Assembly (NCBI GenBank): GCA_023150375.1
Contig: JAKLLA010000023.1
Coordinates: forward strand, 1 to 59,736
DNA: 59,736 bases
Reading direction: 5' to 3'
From: Burkholderiaceae bacterium
GTDB lineage: Bacteria; Pseudomonadota; Gammaproteobacteria; Burkholderiales; Burkholderiaceae_C
Shown here: positions 11,036-20,344 of the stretch, one piece after another
How the letters are laid out: each line of letters starts with the position of its first letter
Position numbering within the stretch: position 1 is the first letter of the stretch
Program-made: the position numbers and the translations under genes
Notes under the pieces: generated by a model
Seen by the model: only the letters and a program-made list of their open reading frames with translations
Told to the model about the DNA's origin: nothing
Databases searched by the model: none

Positions 11036-11365
11036 GCGCCCTTGCGGGGCGCCTGCAGCGCACTTCCGGCCGGGCGTGCCGGTCCTGCGATGCGGGCTTC
11101 CGTGAATTTTTCACATCAGGTTCCGTATGGTGCGAAAGGCGTCGCGTACAGGCGTCGAACCGGAAAAAAACGTGGCAAGGAGGGTTCACTTCGACGTGAC
11201 TCCGTCACAGAATCCGACGCGGCCGATGGGGAGACCGACTCCGGCCCTTGGTTGAAGGGTTGAAGCGCACCGCGTGACGTACAGAATCCGGAGCTCGGAA
11301 ACGAGGGGCAGCGGGGGACCTGTGAGGTCATGACTGCCCGAACCGGTCGCAGTGAGGGCTCACGG
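11036..11365 (+). other. 330-nt upstream region of the exopolysaccharide genes
   Basis: No gene is seen here. It contains a palindrome GTGAC-TCC-GTCAC (11196-11208) and the sequence ACAGAATCCG twice (11207-11216 and 11281-11290), each time shortly after GTGAC. It is less GC-rich than its flanks around 11100-11180, as promoter regions often are. No convincing sigma70 or sigma54 promoter could be assigned. It probably holds the control region of the polysaccharide cluster. Confidence 0.4.
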
Positions 11366-12775
11366 ATGTTCAGAGTATTTCAGCATCGCACTTCAGGGAC
11401 GCACTTCGTCGAGTTGTTCGCCGACGGGCTGCTGTGCTTCTTCGCGGCCCTGCTGTCCGCTGCCACGTTGGCGCAGGCCGGCTCGGCCTATTCGACCTTC
11501 GTCCAGCTCGCGGCGCCCAGCATTCTGCTGTCGGCGCTGACGTTCGCGCTGGTGATGGCGCTGCTGTATTCCTTCGTCGGGCTGTACCGGCATCGCAACC
11601 TCGGCCTGCTGCCGATGCTCGGTCGCATCGCCTTCACCTTCGCGGTCGGGGGCTACATCACCTATCTGACGATCAAGTACATCGAGTACGACGGCTATGC
11701 CAGCCGTCTGGTCGGGCTGGCGCTGGTCTACCTGCTGGCGGGGCTGACGGTGTATCGGGGGGTGGCCTGGGCGGTGCGCCAGGCCATCGGCACGCGGCGT
11801 GTGCTGATCGTCGGCACCGGGCCGGACGCCCAGCAGGTCTGGAGCGACCTGCGTGCCGGTGAGCAGTGGTCGAGCTACGAGGTGGTCGGCTTCGTGCCGA
11901 CGGCCGAGCAGGCCTCGTCGGTGGTGTCGCGCGAAGGCGCGGCGGTGTTCGATGCGTCGAGGCGTCTGACCGAGCTGGTGCGCGAGCACCGGGTCAACGA
12001 GATCATCGTGGCGGTGCGCGAGCAGCGTGGCGGTGGCGTGCCGATGGAGCAGCTGCTCGAGTGCCGCATCGGCGGGGTGCCCATCATGGATCTGGCGGGC
12101 TTCTACGAGCGTGCCAAGGCCGAGGTGCCGGTGGACAGCCTGAAGGCCAGCTGGCTGGTCTACGGCGAGGGCTTTGTCCAGGGGGGGCTGCGGCAGGCTT
12201 CCAAGCGGGTTTTCGATGTGGTGAGTTCCTCGGTGCTGCTGATCCTGGGGGCGCCGGTGATGCTGCTGACCGCGCTGGCGATCCGCCTGGACAGCCCCGG
12301 TCCCATCCTCTATCGCCAGGAGCGGGTCGGCCTGGGCGGGCGCAGCTTCCAGTGCATCAAGTTCCGCAGCATGCGTACCGATGCCGAGAAGGATGGCGTG
12401 GCGCGCTGGGCCACCAAGAACGACAGCCGCATCACCCGGGTGGGGGCCTTCATCCGCAAGACCCGCATCGACGAGCTGCCGCAGCTCTTCAGCGTCCTGC
12501 GCGGCGAGATGAGCATGGTCGGCCCCCGGCCGGAGCGCCCCTCCTTCGTGGCCCAGTTGCGCGAGCAGATCCCCTTCTACGATCTGCGCCACACCGTCAA
12601 GCCGGGCCTGACGGGCTGGGCCCAGGTCCGCTACGCCTACGGGGCGTCGCTCGAGGATGCGCGCAAGAAGCACCAGTTCGACCTGTACTACGTCAAGAAC
12701 AACTCGGTGCTGCTGGACCTGCAGGTGCTGATCGAGACGGTCAGCGTGGTGCTCTTCCGGGAGGGGGCGCACTGA
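11366..12775 (+). CDS. Undecaprenyl-phosphate sugar phosphotransferase, PEP-CTERM/EPS type
   Basis: A 469-residue polyprenyl-phosphate sugar-1-phosphate transferase that starts exopolysaccharide repeat-unit assembly on the inner membrane. The N-terminal third has four to five hydrophobic helices, followed by a CoA/nucleotide-binding-like segment ([16 protein letters not shown]) and, from about residue 280, a bacterial sugar-transferase domain with [40 protein letters not shown] and [11 protein letters not shown]. The architecture matches the EpsB/WcaJ relatives of exosortase-linked loci. ATG 11366 (GAGG 8 nt upstream, MFRVFQHR start) is chosen; an in-frame ATG at 11330 is the alternative. First gene of the polysaccharide cluster, with a terminator right after it. 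Confidence 0.88.
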
Positions 12776-12829: not shown

Positions 12830-12991
12830 GTGCCCGTGAATCGGGGGGAGTCCCGCAGATGCGTGTGTTCGCCACGGGCAAACCGCACGCCTGGGGGAGG
12901 GGGCGAGTCGGCGCAAAGGCGCGTTAAGGCTCGCAAGGTAGGATTGCATCCGTTTGTTGTCGGCAGTAGCCGTTTGTAGAGAGGAATGGGC

Positions 12992-13627
12992 ATGAGGATC
13001 GAGACGGGAACCTTCCTGCGCATCGGCGCCTGGCTGATGGCGGCTGCCATGTTCACGCTCCAGTTGGCGGGCTGTGCCAGCGGCAGCGGCCATCCGCCGG
13101 CTCCGCGCAAGGCGCAGACGCCGGACCATCGCTACAAGATCGGTCCGTTGGACACGCTCAACGTCGTGGTCTGGCGCAATCCGGAGTTGTCCGGCACCGT
13201 GACCGTGCGTCCGGACGGCCGGATCTCCACGCCGCTGGTGAGCGATGTGCTGGCCGCGGGCAAGAGCCCCTCGGACCTGGCTCAGGAGATCCAGCAGGAG
13301 CTGTCGCGCGTGATCCGGGATCCGGTGGTCACGGTGGTCGTGTCCGGCTTCCAGGGCAACCTGAACGAGCTGATCCGCATCGTCGGCGAGGCGACCCGTC
13401 CGCAGGCGGTGTCCTTCCGCCAGGACATGACGCTGCTGGACGTGATGATCCAGGCCGGCGGTCTGACCGACTTCGCCGACGGCAACGGGGCGGTGCTGGT
13501 GCGCGGCTCGGAGGGCGGCAAGCAGTACAGCGTGCGCCTGAAGGACCTGCTCAAGCGGGGCGACATCTCGGCCAACGTCGACGTCAAGCCCGGCGACATC
13601 ATCATCGTGCCGCAGAGCTGGTTCTGA
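12992..13627 (+). CDS. Polysaccharide export lipoprotein (Wza/EpsE-like)
   Basis: A 211-residue outer-membrane polysaccharide export protein of the short, exosortase-associated type. A lipoprotein signal with lipobox LAGC places the acylated cysteine at residue 28. The Poly_export domain (YKIGPLDTLNVVVWRNPELS...) and a SLBB-like stretch (IRIVGEATRPQAVSFR...) follow, ending in GDIIIVPQSWF. ATG 12992 is chosen over 12986 because AGAGGA is 6 nt upstream of it and abuts the earlier ATG. The 216-nt gap upstream holds a terminator, so a separate promoter is expected. Likely partner of the chain-length protein downstream. Confidence 0.9.
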   Translation: MRIETGTFLRIGAWLMAAAMFTLQLAGCASGSGHPPAPRKAQTPDHRYKIGPLDTLNVVVWRNPELSGTVTVRPDGRISTPLVSDVLAAGKSPSDLAQEIQQELSRVIRDPVVTVVVSGFQGNLNELIRIVGEATRPQAVSFRQDMTLLDVMIQAGGLTDFADGNGAVLVRGSEGGKQYSVRLKDLLKRGDISANVDVKPGDIIIVPQSWF

Positions 13628-13744: not shown

Positions 13745-15301
13745 ATGATGCATTTCCCTGAACAGGCCATGACGGTGTTGCGCTCCGTCTGGCGACAGCG
13801 CTGGCTGGCCGTGATCACGGCCTGGACCGTGGCGGTGCTGGGCGGCGTGCTGGTGGCGGTCACGCCGGAGCGCTACGAGGCGCAGGCGCGCATCCATGTG
13901 GACACGCAGACGGTGCTCAAGCCGCTGATGTCCGGTCTGGCCTTCCAGCCCGACATCGACCAGCAGGTACGCATGCTGGCGCGCACGCTGATCTCGCGGC
14001 CGCACGTCGAGCGACTGTCCAACGATGCCGCCATCGGCTGGCCGCAGGGCACGCCGGAGCAGGCCGCCAAGCGGGTCGAGATGCTGCTCAAGGCGATCAA
14101 GGTCGAGCAGGCCGGCGGCAGCAACCTGTACGCCATCAGCTACCGCGACAGCGATGCGCAGCGCGCCAACCGGCTCGTGACTGCGCTGGTGGGTCTGTTC
14201 ATGAACGCCAGCACCGACACCAAGCGCCGTGACTCGGAAGAGGCCAGCCGCTTCATCGACGAGCAGATCCGGGCCTACGAGGCCAAGCTCATCGAGTCGG
14301 AGAACCGCCTCAAGGAGTTCAAGCTGCGCAACATGAATGTGGGCGTGACGAACAACCAGGACTTCTTCAGCCGCATCTCGGCGCTCAACGACGACGTGGC
14401 GCGCATCCGGCTGGCCCTGGGAGCGGCCGAGCAGTCGCGCGACGCGCTGAAGCGGGAGCTGGCCGCGACCGAGCCGCAGATCGCCAGCGACACGCCCACC
14501 CCGGGCGTGTCCTCGCTGACGCCCGACCTGGATGCGCGCATCGACACCCAGCGTCGCCAGCTCGACGAGATGCTGCGTCGCTACACCGACGAGCATCCGG
14601 ACGTGCAGTCCACCCGGCGCACCATCGCCCAGCTCGAGGCACAGCGGCGCAGCGAGCTCGACCTGCTGCGCTCGCAGGCCGGCGGCAAGGCGCGTGCGGC
14701 AGCGACGGCCGGCAATCCGGTGTTCCAGAAGCTGCGCATCTCGCTGGCCGAGGCCGAGGCGAATGTCGCCTCGCTGCGCAGCCAGCTCGGCACGCAGCAG
14801 GCCCGCCTGGAGGAGATCAAGGCGCAGGCCGGAAGGGTGCCGCAGGCGGAGGCCGAGCTGGCCCAGCTCAACCGCGACTACGACATCATGCGCAAGAACT
14901 ACGAGCAGCTGGTGTCGCGACGCGAGGCGGCCTCGCTGGGCGTGAAGATCGACCAGCAGGCCTCGCTGGCCGATTTCCGGCTGGTCGAGCCGCCCCGCGT
15001 GCTGCCGACCCCGGTCTTCCCCAGCCGGACCCAGCTGGCGCTGGTGGTGATGCTGCTGGCCCTGGTCGCCGGTGCGGCCGCGGCCTTCGGGGTCAGCCGG
15101 CTCAAGCCGACCTTCTCGAGCGAGCGCGACCTGCGGGCCTTCACGAAGCGGCCGGTGCTCGGTGGCCTGACGCGTCTGGCCGATGCGCGCCAGACACTTC
15201 TGGACCGGCAGGACCGTCTGCGCGTCATGGGTGCGATGGGCCTGTTCCTGGTGGTGCATGTGGCCTGGCTGATCTGGCTTTCCGTGCGTCCGGGCACGTG
15301 A
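13745..15301 (+). CDS. Polysaccharide chain-length determinant (Wzz/GumC type)
   Basis: A 518-residue inner-membrane polysaccharide co-polymerase that sets chain length and couples the kinase to export. A transmembrane helix lies at about residues 20-40. The periplasmic Wzz domain (YEAQARIHVDTQTVLKPL...) is followed by long alpha-helical coiled coils (about 175-260 and 340-420), a second helix near 425-447 and a hydrophobic C-terminal segment near 492-512. The layout matches the PEP-CTERM-locus chain-length subfamily; it lacks a fused kinase domain, which is encoded by the next gene. The start is uncertain by eight codons (ATG at 13745 or 13769). Confidence 0.9.
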   Translation: MMHFPEQAMTVLRSVWRQRWLAVITAWTVAVLGGVLVAVTPERYEAQARIHVDTQTVLKPLMSGLAFQPDIDQQVRMLARTLISRPHVERLSNDAAIGWPQGTPEQAAKRVEMLLKAIKVEQAGGSNLYAISYRDSDAQRANRLVTALVGLFMNASTDTKRRDSEEASRFIDEQIRAYEAKLIESENRLKEFKLRNMNVGVTNNQDFFSRISALNDDVARIRLALGAAEQSRDALKRELAATEPQIASDTPTPGVSSLTPDLDARIDTQRRQLDEMLRRYTDEHPDVQSTRRTIAQLEAQRRSELDLLRSQAGGKARAAATAGNPVFQKLRISLAEAEANVASLRSQLGTQQARLEEIKAQAGRVPQAEAELAQLNRDYDIMRKNYEQLVSRREAASLGVKIDQQASLADFRLVEPPRVLPTPVFPSRTQLALVVMLLALVAGAAAAFGVSRLKPTFSSERDLRAFTKRPVLGGLTRLADARQTLLDRQDRLRVMGAMGLFLVVHVAWLIWLSVRPGT

Positions 15302-15317
15302 TCCGAGGGGATATCCG

Positions 15318-16220
15318 ATGAATCTCATCGAACAGGCCGCCAAGCGTCGCCTGGAGGAACTCAAGCGTGCCGGCATCGAGGTGTCGGTTCCGTCGGCGCC
15401 GGAAGTCCCTGTCGGTGCGGCGGTCGCTGCACCGGCGGTCGTCGCGGCCGCACGGGCACCGGTTGCCCCACCGGCCGAGCCCGCGCGTCGCTCGCGTGAG
15501 GTGGTGCTGGATCTGGCCCGGCTCGAGCGTGAAGGCTACCTGGTGCCCTCGCAGGCGCGCTCGGAGCTGGCCGAGCAGCTGCGCATCATCAAGCGGCCGC
15601 TGCTGGCCAACACCCGCGATGCCGAGGCCCGTGCGATACCGCGCGCGAATCTGATCCAGGTGGTCAGCGCGATGCCGGGTGAGGGCAAGACCTTCTTCGC
15701 CGTGAACCTGGCGATGAGCATCGCCATGGAGGTCGATCACTCGGTGCTGCTGGTCGACGCCGACGTGCTGCGGCCTTCCGTGCTGGCGCGCCTCGGCGTG
15801 GAGCCCGCACCCGGTCTGATGGACGTGCTCGACCCTAAGCAGAACCTCACGCTGGCGGATGTGATGCTGCGCACCGATGTGCCCAAGCTCAGCCTGCTGC
15901 CGGCCGGCACGGCCCATGCCAAGTCCACCGAAATGCTGGCCAGCGCCGCGATGGCCGAGCTGCTCGACGAACTGGCGGCCAAGTACTCGGACCGCATCGT
16001 CGTGTTCGATTCGCCGCCGCTGATCCCGACCACCGAGTCGCGGGTCCTGGCCTCGCGGGTCGGCCAGGTCGTCATGGTGGTCGAGGCCGAGCACACCACG
16101 CATGCCCAGGTGACCCAGGCCTTTGCCGCTGTCGAGCAGTGCCCGGTGGTGCTGTCGGTCCTGAACAAGTGCGCGGACCGCGGAGCCAGGGGGGGCTATG
16201 GCTACTACTACTCGAGCTGA
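15318..16220 (+). CDS. Exopolysaccharide tyrosine autokinase (BY-kinase)
   Basis: A 300-residue cytoplasmic bacterial tyrosine kinase of the exosortase/EPS-locus type, controlling polymer assembly through autophosphorylation. After an Ala/Pro-rich N-terminal stretch (about 25-57) it shows Walker A AMPGEGKT (118-125), the A' motif LLVDADVLRPS (about 144-154) and Walker B VVFDSPPLI. The tail YGYYYSS (294-300) is a tyrosine cluster as expected for phosphorylation. It starts 16 nt after the chain-length gene and overlaps the next gene by 23 nt, so translation is probably coupled. Confidence 0.9.
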   Translation: MNLIEQAAKRRLEELKRAGIEVSVPSAPEVPVGAAVAAPAVVAAARAPVAPPAEPARRSREVVLDLARLEREGYLVPSQARSELAEQLRIIKRPLLANTRDAEARAIPRANLIQVVSAMPGEGKTFFAVNLAMSIAMEVDHSVLLVDADVLRPSVLARLGVEPAPGLMDVLDPKQNLTLADVMLRTDVPKLSLLPAGTAHAKSTEMLASAAMAELLDELAAKYSDRIVVFDSPPLIPTTESRVLASRVGQVVMVVEAEHTTHAQVTQAFAAVEQCPVVLSVLNKCADRGARGGYGYYYSS

Positions 16221-17787
16221 GCGGCCCGCTCGGGCGGGCCGCCGCGGCGCCGTCGCGGCGGGCACCACCCTGCTTGTGCTGCTGACGGCGTCTCCGGCGC
16301 TGCAGGCCCAGGCCTGGCGCTTCGAGCCGGCCGTGAAGGTCACCGCCGTGGCCACCGACAACGTCGGTCTTTCCTCGACCCAGGAACAGTCCGATGTGGT
16401 GGTGGTCACCACGCCGAGCGTGCGCGTGCAGGGGCGCGGGCCGCGCTACGAGGTCACCGGCGCGCTGGCCGCCGATGCCGTGCAGTACCTCGGTCGCTCG
16501 CGCGGAGACCGGCTGTTTCCGCAGACCACGCTCGACCTGCGCAGCCAGCCGGTGGAGCGGCTGTTCTTCCTCGATGCGCAGGCCTCGGCACGCACCACCA
16601 CCTCGGACCCCTTCGGCGACCTGGGTGATGGTCCGACCGTGCTCAACCGCAGCCGCGTGCTGCGAGGCAGTCTGAGTCCGCGCCTGGAGCGTGAGCTGTC
16701 GCCCACGACGCGCTTCAGCCTGCGTTCCGACCACGCCTGGTCGCGTGGTTTCGGCAGTCAGACCGCGCCTTCCTCCAACGATGCCTATGTCGAGGGGCAG
16801 GCCGGCCTGTACGAGCTGAAGCCCCTGCCGATGGGGCTGCGCCTGTCGTACGACCGGCAGATGACGCGCTACAAGTCCCAGCCCGACAACGAGCTGGAGT
16901 TCCGTACCGCGCGTGCCGCGCTGCTCTACAGCCCCGATCCGGAGCTGACGCTCGGTCTGACCGTGGGTCGCGACGAAGGCCGCTACACCACCAACACGCT
17001 GCGCGATACGCTGCGCGGCGTCAGCCTGCGCTGGGTGCCCAGCGAGCGCACGCGGCTGGAGATGCAGGCCGAGCGGCGCTTCTTCGGCAACGGCTGGGAT
17101 GCGACGCTCAGCCATCGCTCCCCGTTCGTGGCGATCAATGCGAGAGTGCAGCGCAGCGTCTCGACCTACGCGTCGCGGCTGGGCGTGCTTTCTGCCGGCA
17201 CCGACGTGGCCGGACTGCTCGACGCGATGCTGACCACGCGCGTGCCCGATCCGAACCAGCGCTCGCAACTGGTGCAGGACATCATCGCCCAGCGCGGCCT
17301 GCCCGACAGTCTGTCGTCGGCGATCGATCTGTACTCCGGCGGGGCCCAGGTCACGCAGGGCGGCACGCTCGGCCTGGCCTGGATGGGGCCGCGCAACGTG
17401 CTGACGAGCCAGGTCTATGCGCTGCGCACCCGCGACCTGCGTGGGCCGGACGATGTCCTGCTGGTGTCGGCCGATTCGCGCCAGCGTGGCGCGAGCGTCG
17501 GCCTGTCGCACCGGCTGACCCCGCAGCTCAGCGCGGAGGCTGCCGTCACCTTCGCGCGGGTGCGCGGGGAGGGCAGCAACCTCGGACGCAACACCCGCAA
17601 CCTGGGCTGGCGCATCGGGGCCACCCAGGCACTGTCGCTGCGCACCTCGGCCACCGCCGGGCTGCGCTTCCAGACTGTGCACAGCGACACTCCGGGCGGC
17701 CTGACCAGCGATGGCACGCGCTTTGCCGCCAATTCGTCGAAGGCCGAGGCGACCTCGCTGTCGGTCGGCGTGCTGCACCGTTTCTAG
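16198..17787 (+). CDS. Outer-membrane beta-barrel protein, PEP-CTERM/EPS locus
   Basis: A 529-residue protein with an N-terminal signal (hydrophobic core about 20-34, ending ALQAQA) and then many short amphipathic strands, ending in the aromatic LHRF typical of outer-membrane barrels. The order after the kinase gene and before the ATPase gene, and the RFEPAVKVTAVATDNVGLSS start of the mature protein, match the uncharacterised TIGR03016-type family of exosortase loci. It may be the outer-membrane channel for polysaccharide or a secretion partner. Overlaps the kinase gene by 23 nt. Confidence 0.8.
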   Translation: MATTTRAERPARAGRRGAVAAGTTLLVLLTASPALQAQAWRFEPAVKVTAVATDNVGLSSTQEQSDVVVVTTPSVRVQGRGPRYEVTGALAADAVQYLGRSRGDRLFPQTTLDLRSQPVERLFFLDAQASARTTTSDPFGDLGDGPTVLNRSRVLRGSLSPRLERELSPTTRFSLRSDHAWSRGFGSQTAPSSNDAYVEGQAGLYELKPLPMGLRLSYDRQMTRYKSQPDNELEFRTARAALLYSPDPELTLGLTVGRDEGRYTTNTLRDTLRGVSLRWVPSERTRLEMQAERRFFGNGWDATLSHRSPFVAINARVQRSVSTYASRLGVLSAGTDVAGLLDAMLTTRVPDPNQRSQLVQDIIAQRGLPDSLSSAIDLYSGGAQVTQGGTLGLAWMGPRNVLTSQVYALRTRDLRGPDDVLLVSADSRQRGASVGLSHRLTPQLSAEAAVTFARVRGEGSNLGRNTRNLGWRIGATQALSLRTSATAGLRFQTVHSDTPGGLTSDGTRFAANSSKAEATSLSVGVLHRF

Positions 17788-17794
17788 AGCCTCG

Positions 17795-20344
17795 ATGTAC
17801 GAAACCCACTTCGGCTTCAGCGGGCCCCCGTTCCAGCTCAACCCCGACCCGGCCTTCTACTTCAACAGCAAGGGGCACAGCCGTGCCATGGGCTACCTGC
17901 AGTACGGCGTCATGCAGGGGGAGGGCTTCATCGTCATCACCGGCGAGATCGGTGCGGGCAAGACCACGCTGCTGCGCACCCTGCTGGAGGGGCTGGATCG
18001 CCAGAAGGTGCTGGCCGCCCAGATCGTCAGCACACAGCTCGAATCGGGCGAACTGCTGCAGGCCATCATCACCGCCTTCGGCATCCCCGCACAGGGCAGT
18101 TCCAAGGCGCACCTGATCGCCACCCTCGAGGCCTTCCTGACGGCGCTGGCCGCACAGGGGCGCCATGCTCTGCTCATCGTCGACGAGGCACAGAACCTCG
18201 ACGAGCGGGCGGTCGAGGAGCTGCGCATGCTGTCGAACTTCCAGCTCGGCAACCATGCGCTGCTGCAGAGCTTCCTGGTCGGCCAGCCCGAACTGCGCCG
18301 TCTGCTCGAGTCGCCGCAGATGGAGCAGCTGCGCCAGCGCGTGATCGCCTCGCAGCACCTCGGTCCCCTGGGGCCGGACGAGACCCAGGCGTACATCGAG
18401 CACCGCCTGCGACGGGTCGGCTGGCAGGACCGGCCCGCCTTCGCACCAGGCGCCTTCGACCACATCTATGCCTGGACCGGCGGGGTGCCGCGCCGCATCA
18501 ACCGCCTGTCCAACCGGCTGCTGCTGGCGTCCTATCTGGAGAACACCGACCAGATCACGCCGGAGCTGGTCGAGCAGACCGCGCTGGAGCTGCGCAACGA
18601 GATCGGCGAGGCCCATTACCAGCCGCTGCCGTTGCCCGTGCGGGAGCGCAGCGGCGGCGCGCCGGCGGCCGCACCGGCACCCGGGGTGGAACCCGGGCCG
18701 GCACCGGCAGCGGCCACCCAGCCCGCTCCGGGGGCCATGCCCCCCGCGGCACCGCTGCAGGCCGCCGAACCCGCCCCGGAGCCTGCCGCGACGCGGCAGG
18801 CCGGTGAGCCGTTGTCGCCACCTGCGAGCCCGGCCGAGGCGCCCGCCGACAGGGTGGTGCCGTCTGCGCCGCCGCCGGCGCAGGCATCGGCCGCAACGCC
18901 GCCCTGGCCGGCAGCCCGTTCCGAGGAACCGCTCTCTGTGCAGGCGACGGCTGCAGCGCAGGGTGTAGCGGGCGTGGATCCCGGCGAGCCCAGCGCCTCG
19001 GAACGCGGTGAAGGCGACACCCCGGCCGGGGCGCCGCTCGACGTCGCCGCGGTGGGCGGCGCGGTCGCGGCGGCTGCGGCGCACTACGTGCCCGAAGCCG
19101 TCGAGCCCCTGCACCAGCGTCGGGCCGCCACGGCCCGGTATCGCGGTGTCGTGCTCTGCCTGGCCGACACGGCCCAGGCCGCCTTGAACGTCGCCGCGAT
19201 TGCCCGGGCCATGCCGCGTGACGGGCAGGGCCTGCGTCTGCTGCTGGTCAACCCGGGCCGCTCCGCCCAGGTCTGGCCCTGGCAGGCGATGGACCGCCTG
19301 CTGCCCGCGCCCGAGGAGGGTGTGCATCTCGAACTTCACGCCGCGCCCTTTGCCACGCAGGCGCCCCGGATCATCGCCGCGATGGACCGCTTGCTGGCCG
19401 AGTTCCAGCCGCTGGCCGTGGCCGTCGCGGGCGACAGCGACGCCTTGCTGGCCGGCGCACTGACTGCGCACAAGGCCGGACTGCCTCTGTGGCAACTGAT
19501 GCTGGGGACGCCGCGGGACGAGGGCAACGCCGTCCTGATCGCACGCATGGCGCAGCAGGTGCTGGCACCGGACCGGCCCGAGTCGGCGTCGCTGCTGCAG
19601 CAGCAGGGCCTGGAAGCCGGGCGCTGCCGACTGGTGCCCGACGGACTCGCCGTGCAGGCGCTGGCCGCGCTGTGGCCGGAGGTGACCACGCCATACGGTG
19701 CCTTCCTGCGCCACGCGATGCCGATCTACCTGGGCCCGACCTGGTCCGAGCATGCCGGTGCCGGGACTCCCTATGTCCTGTGCACGCTGACATTGCCCGA
19801 TGCGCCCGATCTGGCCCGGCAGCGGCTGCAAGGGCTGCTGGACGTGCAGGCGCTGCCGAAGATCCTGTGGCTGCTCGACCGCGACAGCGAGGCCACGCTG
19901 ACGGCGCTGCTCGCCGCCGAGCCCGCGCTGGCGCAGGCGACCTGCCTGCTGCACGGCGAAGGGCCGCGGTCTGCGGCCGAGCGTGACCGCATGGACCGGG
20001 CCCGGCTGCTGGGCATCGGCGTGCCCTCGCTATGCGATCAACTGAGCATGCTGCGCGGGGCGCGCTGCGCGATCGTCGAGCCCGGTCAGGTCCTCGCCGA
20101 GGCGGCCCGCTGGCTCAGCCTGCCCAGCATCGAGGTGGACGGTGCGCAACTGCGTTGCACGGTCTGCGCAGACGTGGCGGGCACGGCCGTGCCGCTCGTC
20201 GAGCTGGGCCAGTGCGTGCACGACCTGGTTTCGAGCGCCGACGACCGGGAGATCCGCCAGGCGCCCGAGGTGCCCGGCACCGACGTGGCGGCCACGATCG
20301 CGCACAGCCTGCTCGAAGCGCTGGCGGCCGCGTCGTCGCGCTGA
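17795..20344 (+). CDS. EPS-locus AAA ATPase fused to a UDP-GlcNAc 2-epimerase-like domain
   Basis: An 849-residue protein. Residues 1-275 are an ExeA/GspA-type AAA ATPase as found in exosortase loci (family proteins are usually only a few hundred residues): Walker A GEIGAGKTT at 50-58, Walker B ALLIVDE at 125-131, then GVPRRINRL. A Pro/Ala-rich linker covers about 280-440. Residues ~445-849 read like a WecB-type GT-B fold: VAVAGDSDALLAGALTAHKAG around Asp547, RDEGN at 574-578, LLQQQGL...CRLVPDG, and near the end EPGQVLAEAARWLSLPSI and AGTAVPLVELG. The expected catalytic Glu is Met569 and the His of the HRxEN motif is absent, so the domain is probably not an active epimerase. The domain call is by eye. 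Starts 7 nt after the barrel gene. Confidence 0.8.
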   Translation: MYETHFGFSGPPFQLNPDPAFYFNSKGHSRAMGYLQYGVMQGEGFIVITGEIGAGKTTLLRTLLEGLDRQKVLAAQIVSTQLESGELLQAIITAFGIPAQGSSKAHLIATLEAFLTALAAQGRHALLIVDEAQNLDERAVEELRMLSNFQLGNHALLQSFLVGQPELRRLLESPQMEQLRQRVIASQHLGPLGPDETQAYIEHRLRRVGWQDRPAFAPGAFDHIYAWTGGVPRRINRLSNRLLLASYLENTDQITPELVEQTALELRNEIGEAHYQPLPLPVRERSGGAPAAAPAPGVEPGPAPAAATQPAPGAMPPAAPLQAAEPAPEPAATRQAGEPLSPPASPAEAPADRVVPSAPPPAQASAATPPWPAARSEEPLSVQATAAAQGVAGVDPGEPSASERGEGDTPAGAPLDVAAVGGAVAAAAAHYVPEAVEPLHQRRAATARYRGVVLCLADTAQAALNVAAIARAMPRDGQGLRLLLVNPGRSAQVWPWQAMDRLLPAPEEGVHLELHAAPFATQAPRIIAAMDRLLAEFQPLAVAVAGDSDALLAGALTAHKAGLPLWQLMLGTPRDEGNAVLIARMAQQVLAPDRPESASLLQQQGLEAGRCRLVPDGLAVQALAALWPEVTTPYGAFLRHAMPIYLGPTWSEHAGAGTPYVLCTLTLPDAPDLARQRLQGLLDVQALPKILWLLDRDSEATLTALLAAEPALAQATCLLHGEGPRSAAERDRMDRARLLGIGVPSLCDQLSMLRGARCAIVEPGQVLAEAARWLSLPSIEVDGAQLRCTVCADVAGTAVPLVELGQCVHDLVSSADDREIRQAPEVPGTDVAATIAHSLLEALAAASSR

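Follow-up and report, generated by a model that had tools for sequence, protein, structure and literature searches.

Gene organization of the locus

The window, which is the whole 59,736-nucleotide stretch of DNA analysed, carries on its forward strand a compact run of six polysaccharide genes. In order, the first five match TIGR03013, an EpsB_2 glycosylphosphotransferase (11330..12775, 489 bits), TIGR03027, an XrtA-system polysaccharide export protein (12986..13627, 227.7 bits), TIGR03007, an XrtA-system chain length determinant (13745..15301, 486.8 bits), TIGR03018, an XrtA-associated tyrosine autokinase (15318..16220, 247 bits), and TIGR03016, an XrtA-system outer-membrane protein (16198..17787, 259.6 bits). 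The last gene of the run (17795..20344, also on the forward strand) is one open frame coding for an 849-amino acid protein, and its translation ends at a stop codon at 20342-20344.

Three parts can be distinguished in this protein. Residues 1-269 (17795..18601) form an ExeA/GspA-like ATPase domain of the XrtA type, which matched the TIGR03015 model (pepcterm_ATPase) from end to end (positions 1-269 of 269) with 367.3 bits against a cut-off of 324.5. Its P-loop is intact, with the Walker A motif GEIGAGKT at residues 50-57 and DEAQ at residues 130-133 of the translation; both motifs were kept in the fused-gene ATPases that were scanned, diverged second copies included. A Pro/Ala-rich linker follows (residues 270-447; 18602..19135), whose length varies among the 12 genus members compared. 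The remainder (residues ~448-849; 19136..20341) is assigned, by profile, motif and fold comparisons, to a WecB-like (UDP-GlcNAc 2-epimerase-like, GT-B) domain that has lost its active site. Judged from its sequence, the product joins an ATPase of the XrtA type, its Walker A and DEAQ motifs intact, to a WecB-related domain in which the catalytic motifs are lost.

No exosortase A scored over the cut-off in the window genome, where the best TIGR03109 score was 159 bits against 208. Hence, the ATPase is a TIGR03015 protein, yet not one that lies in a demonstrated or complete XrtA system. In a chosen set of 42 genomes, all 8 unfused ones and 1 of the 34 from the fused clade had an exosortase A over the cut-off, and 7 of these 34 had no exosortase match of any kind; since the fused genomes form one clade, this pattern is not independent evidence of a link to the fusion. 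The window genome also encodes a separate WecB (295 bits to TIGR00236), and its 159-bit exosortase-like gene lies 10 kb from this genuine wecB, on a contig other than that of the fusion. In that region (G000:C6:34526-46442, partly in L113) the wecB gene, with the exosortase-like gene ~10 kb before it, is followed by a gene for a WecB/TagA/CpsF-family glycosyltransferase, and it is apparently a second surface-polysaccharide locus of the genome.

Fold and active site of the C-terminal domain

Residues 441-849 matched Epimerase_2 (PF02350) with an E value of 1.1e-5 and 25 bits, under the curated cut-off of 30.6 and over the N-terminal half only. Against TIGR00236 the domain scored 18.4 bits (cut-off 210), and as a single sequence it matched PDB epimerases at E 4.4e-7, again over the N-terminal half only. 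PF02350 was matched by 11 of the 12 genus members at E up to 0.01. A genus-only profile made from the 12 fused domains reached a best E of 1e-15 against the PDB (columns 11-180, the N-terminal half), and the 26 PDB sequences that it matched at E up to 1 were 25 named 2-epimerases and one CapG; 22 of the 26 had an E of 0.001 or less. The likeness thus exceeds chance. With hhalign, the profile-profile match covered both halves (E 8.7e-21 over 362 columns); the targets were six WecBs and the domain of L009, a member of the same fused clade that may act as a bridge.

When AlphaFold (AF2) was given an alignment of 30 rows (the window protein, L009 and 28 WecB relatives from viral contigs), the domain was modelled with a pLDDT of 79.6 and a pTM of 0.84. 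The domain sequence alone gave a pLDDT of 41 and no usable model, and the model therefore depends on its WecB rows. A Foldseek search with the model returned 209 matches at E up to 0.001, the best with an E of 3.3e-16, TM scores of 0.62/0.69 and an rmsd of 6.4; the best 50 of the 209 were all UDP-sugar 2-epimerases, hydrolysing NeuC included, or CapG. These comparisons support a predicted GT-B fold of two Rossmann domains, and membership of the WecB superfamily by fold and descent. The earlier note had proposed, by eye, an ATPase followed by a Pro/Ala linker and a decayed WecB-type GT-B domain; the profiles bear out this reading, and the GT-B similarity to WecB-type epimerases appears both in Foldseek and in hhalign.

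Twenty motif positions, whose functional roles in WecB we assume, were then scored; GD, H.EAG.R, PEE.NR, HR..N, HPR, DSGG, QEE and TERP are among them. All 20 residues are present in 18 of 18 stand-alone WecBs (one being the reference itself). The window domain keeps five, namely D547, the E and N of PEE.NR, the E of QEE and the R of TERP, the last as assigned by alignment; it has lost HR..N, HPR and DSGG. Between 2 and 11 of the 20 residues remain in each of the clade's 40 fused domains. None of them keeps the H and R of HR..N together, and an H is aligned at this motif in three only (L099, L100 and L126). The HR..N Arg is lost in 39 of the 40, the second Gly of DSGG in 39, and the HPR His in 38. 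The better-kept members (L009, L074-L076) retain H.EAGLR, E..N, the Ser of DSGG and QEE, the GD position in L009-like members being alignment-dependent.

Translation and motif alignment place Asp547, Met569 and TLTLPDA (in the position of the His motif) where the earlier note had put them. Its statement that the main Glu is lost as Met569 holds for the window protein, but not for the genus: 11 of the 12 genus rows have the Glu of EAG, and in this 12-row alignment Met569 occurs in the window protein alone. The genus-wide losses are therefore those in HR..N, HPR and DSGG. Asp547 is common to 2 of the 12 rows, with Asp549 in 10. Overall, the motif losses support the view that the fused domain is probably non-catalytic throughout the window's clade.

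Recurrence and origin of the fusion

The earlier note had asked if the fusion recurs when ATPase lengths are surveyed in other loci, and it does. An ATPase over the cut-off was found in 13 of 13 genomes of the genus, with a frame of 809-914 amino acids in 12 of them. In the family, 105 of 299 genomes had an ATPase over the cut-off; frames of at least 668 residues occurred at 26 places, the others being shorter (up to 509). The fusion was read in 20 family genomes outside the window's genus, which together with the genus represent 13 genus labels. Each survey (family, order and class) sampled a larger group, and second fused copies in the family may be undercounted, as the reading covered few of the lower-scoring ATPase paralogues with long frames. 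Two candidates were discarded: G297, whose product is 368 amino acids long from its start and unfused, and L085, where an apparent fusion to a genuine wecB is only read-through of a stand-alone gene. One fused member, L009, comes from an Aquabacterium sp. MAG (Burkholderiales by NCBI taxonomy), and its domain is much better preserved (PDB E 2.9e-42); the assignment of the fused clade to Burkholderiales is inferred from this member.

In the order survey (399 genomes), the six frames of at least 499 amino acids outside the family (L114-L119) were read; all are upstream read-through, with no fusion to WecB. In the class survey (369 genomes), 18 regions were read, 17 places with frames of at least 504 amino acids outside the family and one shorter. 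One of them, L218, is a fusion of ATPase and WecB and comes from another order; 16 of the 18 have other C-terminal tails, and in L235 wecB is a separate next gene. The tails of the class-level TIGR03015-like ATPases L219-L234 are varied, several share a G.G.F.V.V-like motif, and those of L225 and L231 contain, by eye, an OmpA-like domain. A plasmid protein search gave no record covering 80% of the query, and among the matches listed only the ATPase part was matched; a scan of viral contigs with the L009 fusion as query gave no matches.

Within the clade the gene is found in several arrangements. G211, G119 and G280 have a short ATPase that lacks the domain and, as a second copy, the fusion. 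In the second copies L120, L121, L122, L126, L212 and L213, sited in the locus of the first copy or at another place in the genome, a diverged ATPase domain is still fused to the pseudo-WecB. Under genus label g50 (L078, L080 and L082) the order of genes around the fused ATPase is rearranged, and a very large gene lies downstream; in L082, its first 800 codons match amino-acid adenylation and NRPS models. In L105 (G009) the linker contains a CACCAG hexanucleotide repeat tract with a frame break, and the domain lies in another frame; faulty assembly of the fragmented genome, or real slippage, could account for this. A search for the domain matched in 17 of 19 genomes, with strongly decayed domains scoring weakly (G004 at 1.3e-6). 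The clade genomes G057 (86% complete) and G233 had a short ATPase only, with no WecB-like domain detected, which indicates that the domain can be lost.

Gene order in unfused relatives points to the source of the domain. Among 30 unfused family loci, an intact wecB lies directly after the ATPase in 13 (E 3.8e-108 to 6.3e-118); within the 1.5 kb flank, wecB is absent in 16, and one (L052) has broken WecB pieces. In 10 of the 13 loci with an adjoining wecB, a possible wecB start overlaps the ATPase stop by 4 nt, so that a small frame change would suffice for fusion. In the fused locus L071, the XrtA deacetylase (TIGR03006) is directly after the fused gene.

The trees, which are quick, made without bootstrap, and have some rows on very long branches (e.g., the diverged second copies), are consistent with this source. 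In a WecB tree of 50 rows, 20 of the 40 fused domains group as a single clade (SH-aLRT 99) whose sisters are two genuine WecBs encoded in fused-clade genomes (97); it lies within a larger clade that holds 13 XrtA-locus WecBs (100) and apart from the window genome's own WecB. In the ATPase tree, all the fused forms used, together with five short and one broken form, fall in one clade of 43 of the 85 rows (96); a smaller ATPase tree supports the fused-form clade with 90. L218, whose 20 motif residues are all intact, falls outside the window's clade in both trees. These results favour a derivation of the domain from the wecB of such loci, which would have occurred by one fusion in the ancestor of a Burkholderiales clade. 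In the anatomy and origin of the fusion protein, taken together, we have high confidence. Across the clade the domains range from plainly WecB-like to hardly recognisable, a gradation that is useful for studying the change from enzyme to pseudoenzyme.

Constraint on the domain and its proposed role

Constraint was estimated as dN/dS (Nei-Gojobori) in 17 chosen, overlapping pairs. The medians were 0.08 for the ATPase, 0.27 (0.08-0.84) for the domain and 0.36 for the linker, the linker value being for alignable residues only. In all 17 pairs the domain was below 1, and it exceeded the linker in five and equalled it in two. Between the window protein and its nearest relative the values were 0.06 (ATPase), 0.44 (domain) and 0.39 (linker), and against L102 the C-terminal half of the domain reached 0.97. 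Genuine stand-alone wecB genes gave 0.04-0.19 in seven of eight pairs, the eighth being saturated. The domain is thus near the linker and above stand-alone wecB, which means that the constraint on its sequence is weak, as slow decay would also give. Its length behaves differently from that of the linker. In 12 genus members the domain plus tail measures 397-427 residues (CV 0.02) vs 85-183 for the linker (CV 0.22), and the mean gap fraction over 66 pairs is 0.04 vs 0.30. In 23 other fused proteins the length CV is 0.03 for the domain vs 0.66 for the linker. Of the alignment columns, 36 are conserved in 75% or more of 35 fused domains, and these hold mainly G, P, A or a hydrophobic residue. We read the length pattern as that of a putative folded domain under structural constraint only. 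A predicted fold that is retained without its active site suggests that a dead epimerase may have been kept for a non-catalytic job.

To our knowledge, the XrtA-associated ATPase has no established role. By analogy with ExeA/GspA, it would presumably act in the assembly or gating of the polysaccharide export apparatus. WecB enzymes are dimers; the fused domain would hence most likely dimerise the ATPase and/or dock it, its WecB moiety giving a dimeric scaffold and/or a docking surface for a polysaccharide-export partner, perhaps through a contact already made by WecB as the product of the overlapping neighbour gene. Our preferred reading, that the pseudo-epimerase domain is a scaffold or docking module on the ATPase, we put a little short of an even chance. 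The whole explanation, a dead wecB-derived domain serving as a scaffold on an XrtA-type ATPase, we hold to be somewhat more probable than its negation, a confidence lowered by the seven of 17 pairs in which the dN/dS of the domain equals or exceeds that of the linker.

The main rival is slow decay of a passenger: a functionless attached domain that drifts and is slowly lost, and that stays in frame because its loss disturbs the ATPase or because the time has been too short. The same seven pairs, and the two clade genomes in which no domain was detected, agree with it; so does the fall in similarity to the window genome's WecB from 179 bits (L009) to 17 bits, several genus domains not being found with that WecB at E 1e-3. 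Against such drift stand the nearly invariant length of the domain beside a linker of variable length, the uninterrupted frames in 12 of 13 genus genomes, the dN/dS below 1 in every pair and the retention of the domain in separate second copies. We consider a passenger unlikely, if a serious competitor. Less probable still is a sugar-nucleotide sensor, a domain that binds UDP-GlcNAc or a related UDP-sugar without turnover and gates the ATPase by precursor supply. WecB enzymes are under allosteric control by UDP-GlcNAc, and the residues retained in L009 and L074-L076 would fit, but the DSGG second Gly, the HPR His and the HR..N Arg, which we take to belong to the diphosphate- and uridine-binding motifs, are lost in 39, 38 and 39 of the 40 domains. 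Judged by the motif residues, sensing may occur in the better-kept members but is improbable in the window protein; with five of 20 positions left and HR..N, HPR and DSGG gone, the earlier note's proposal that the domain was kept for UDP-sugar binding finds no support there.

That the domain has kept epimerase activity by means of a re-invented active site is very improbable: no support was found in the window's clade, where 0 of 40 domains keep both the H and R of HR..N, and the window genome has its separate WecB; in the independent L218 fusion all 20 motif residues are intact, so that outside this clade a fused form is probably active. An artefact of assembly or gene calling, to which the frame break in the repeat-rich linker of G009 might point, has a negligible probability, being already refuted by recurrence as a single uninterrupted frame in 12 of the 13 genomes of the genus and in 20 further genomes of the family, five of the 31 fused genomes other than the window's being single-contig (G001, G102, G140, G207 and G299).

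Returning to the scaffold or docking module, the overlapping neighbour gene, two apparently independent fusions and the long retention of a dead WecB lead us to predict a contact between ATPase and WecB, which is directly testable in unfused species. The convergent L218 fusion, with its apparently live epimerase, would suggest that the two cooperate physically in unfused systems. A broader proposal, which we offer only tentatively, is that of an export-ATPase family controlled by a fused pseudoenzyme: an epimerase from a neighbouring gene that, without catalysis, would have become a docking or sensing module, in some lineages also on a second copy with a diverged ATPase, in genomes mostly lacking exosortase A, with ATPase and WecB working together physically in unfused systems too. 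Neither an ATPase-WecB fusion nor a WecB pseudoenzyme is described in the titles and abstract openings of the literature matches listed, and the word epimerase is absent from the main text of PMC1569441 and PMC9850573.

Compared with known systems, the window protein resembles the XrtA/PEP-CTERM ATPase (TIGR03015) in its whole-model match, its Walker A and DEAQ motifs and its neighbours (TIGR03027, TIGR03007, TIGR03018 and TIGR03016). However, the 31 unfused family rows (L041-L070 and L092) end 88-111 residues past the ATPase domain, whereas the window protein carries a further domain of ~400 residues, and a complete XrtA system has exosortase A, for which the window genome has no gene over the cut-off. 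With WecB/MnaA (TIGR00236, PF02350) the domain shares the fold, both halves by profile, and a place in the tree among XrtA-locus WecBs; unlike them, it is under both curated cut-offs, keeps 5 of 20 motif residues and is fused to an ATPase. The best PDB match by sequence, by genus profile and by fold is the UDP-2,3-diacetamido-2,3-dideoxyglucuronic acid 2-epimerase (8sxv, 8sy0), but identity to the top fold match is 19% over aligned columns, and the catalytic motifs of this enzyme are missing from the window domain. The L218 fusion, from another order of the same class, has the same two domains in the same order; it differs in lying outside the window's clade and in having its epimerase motifs complete.
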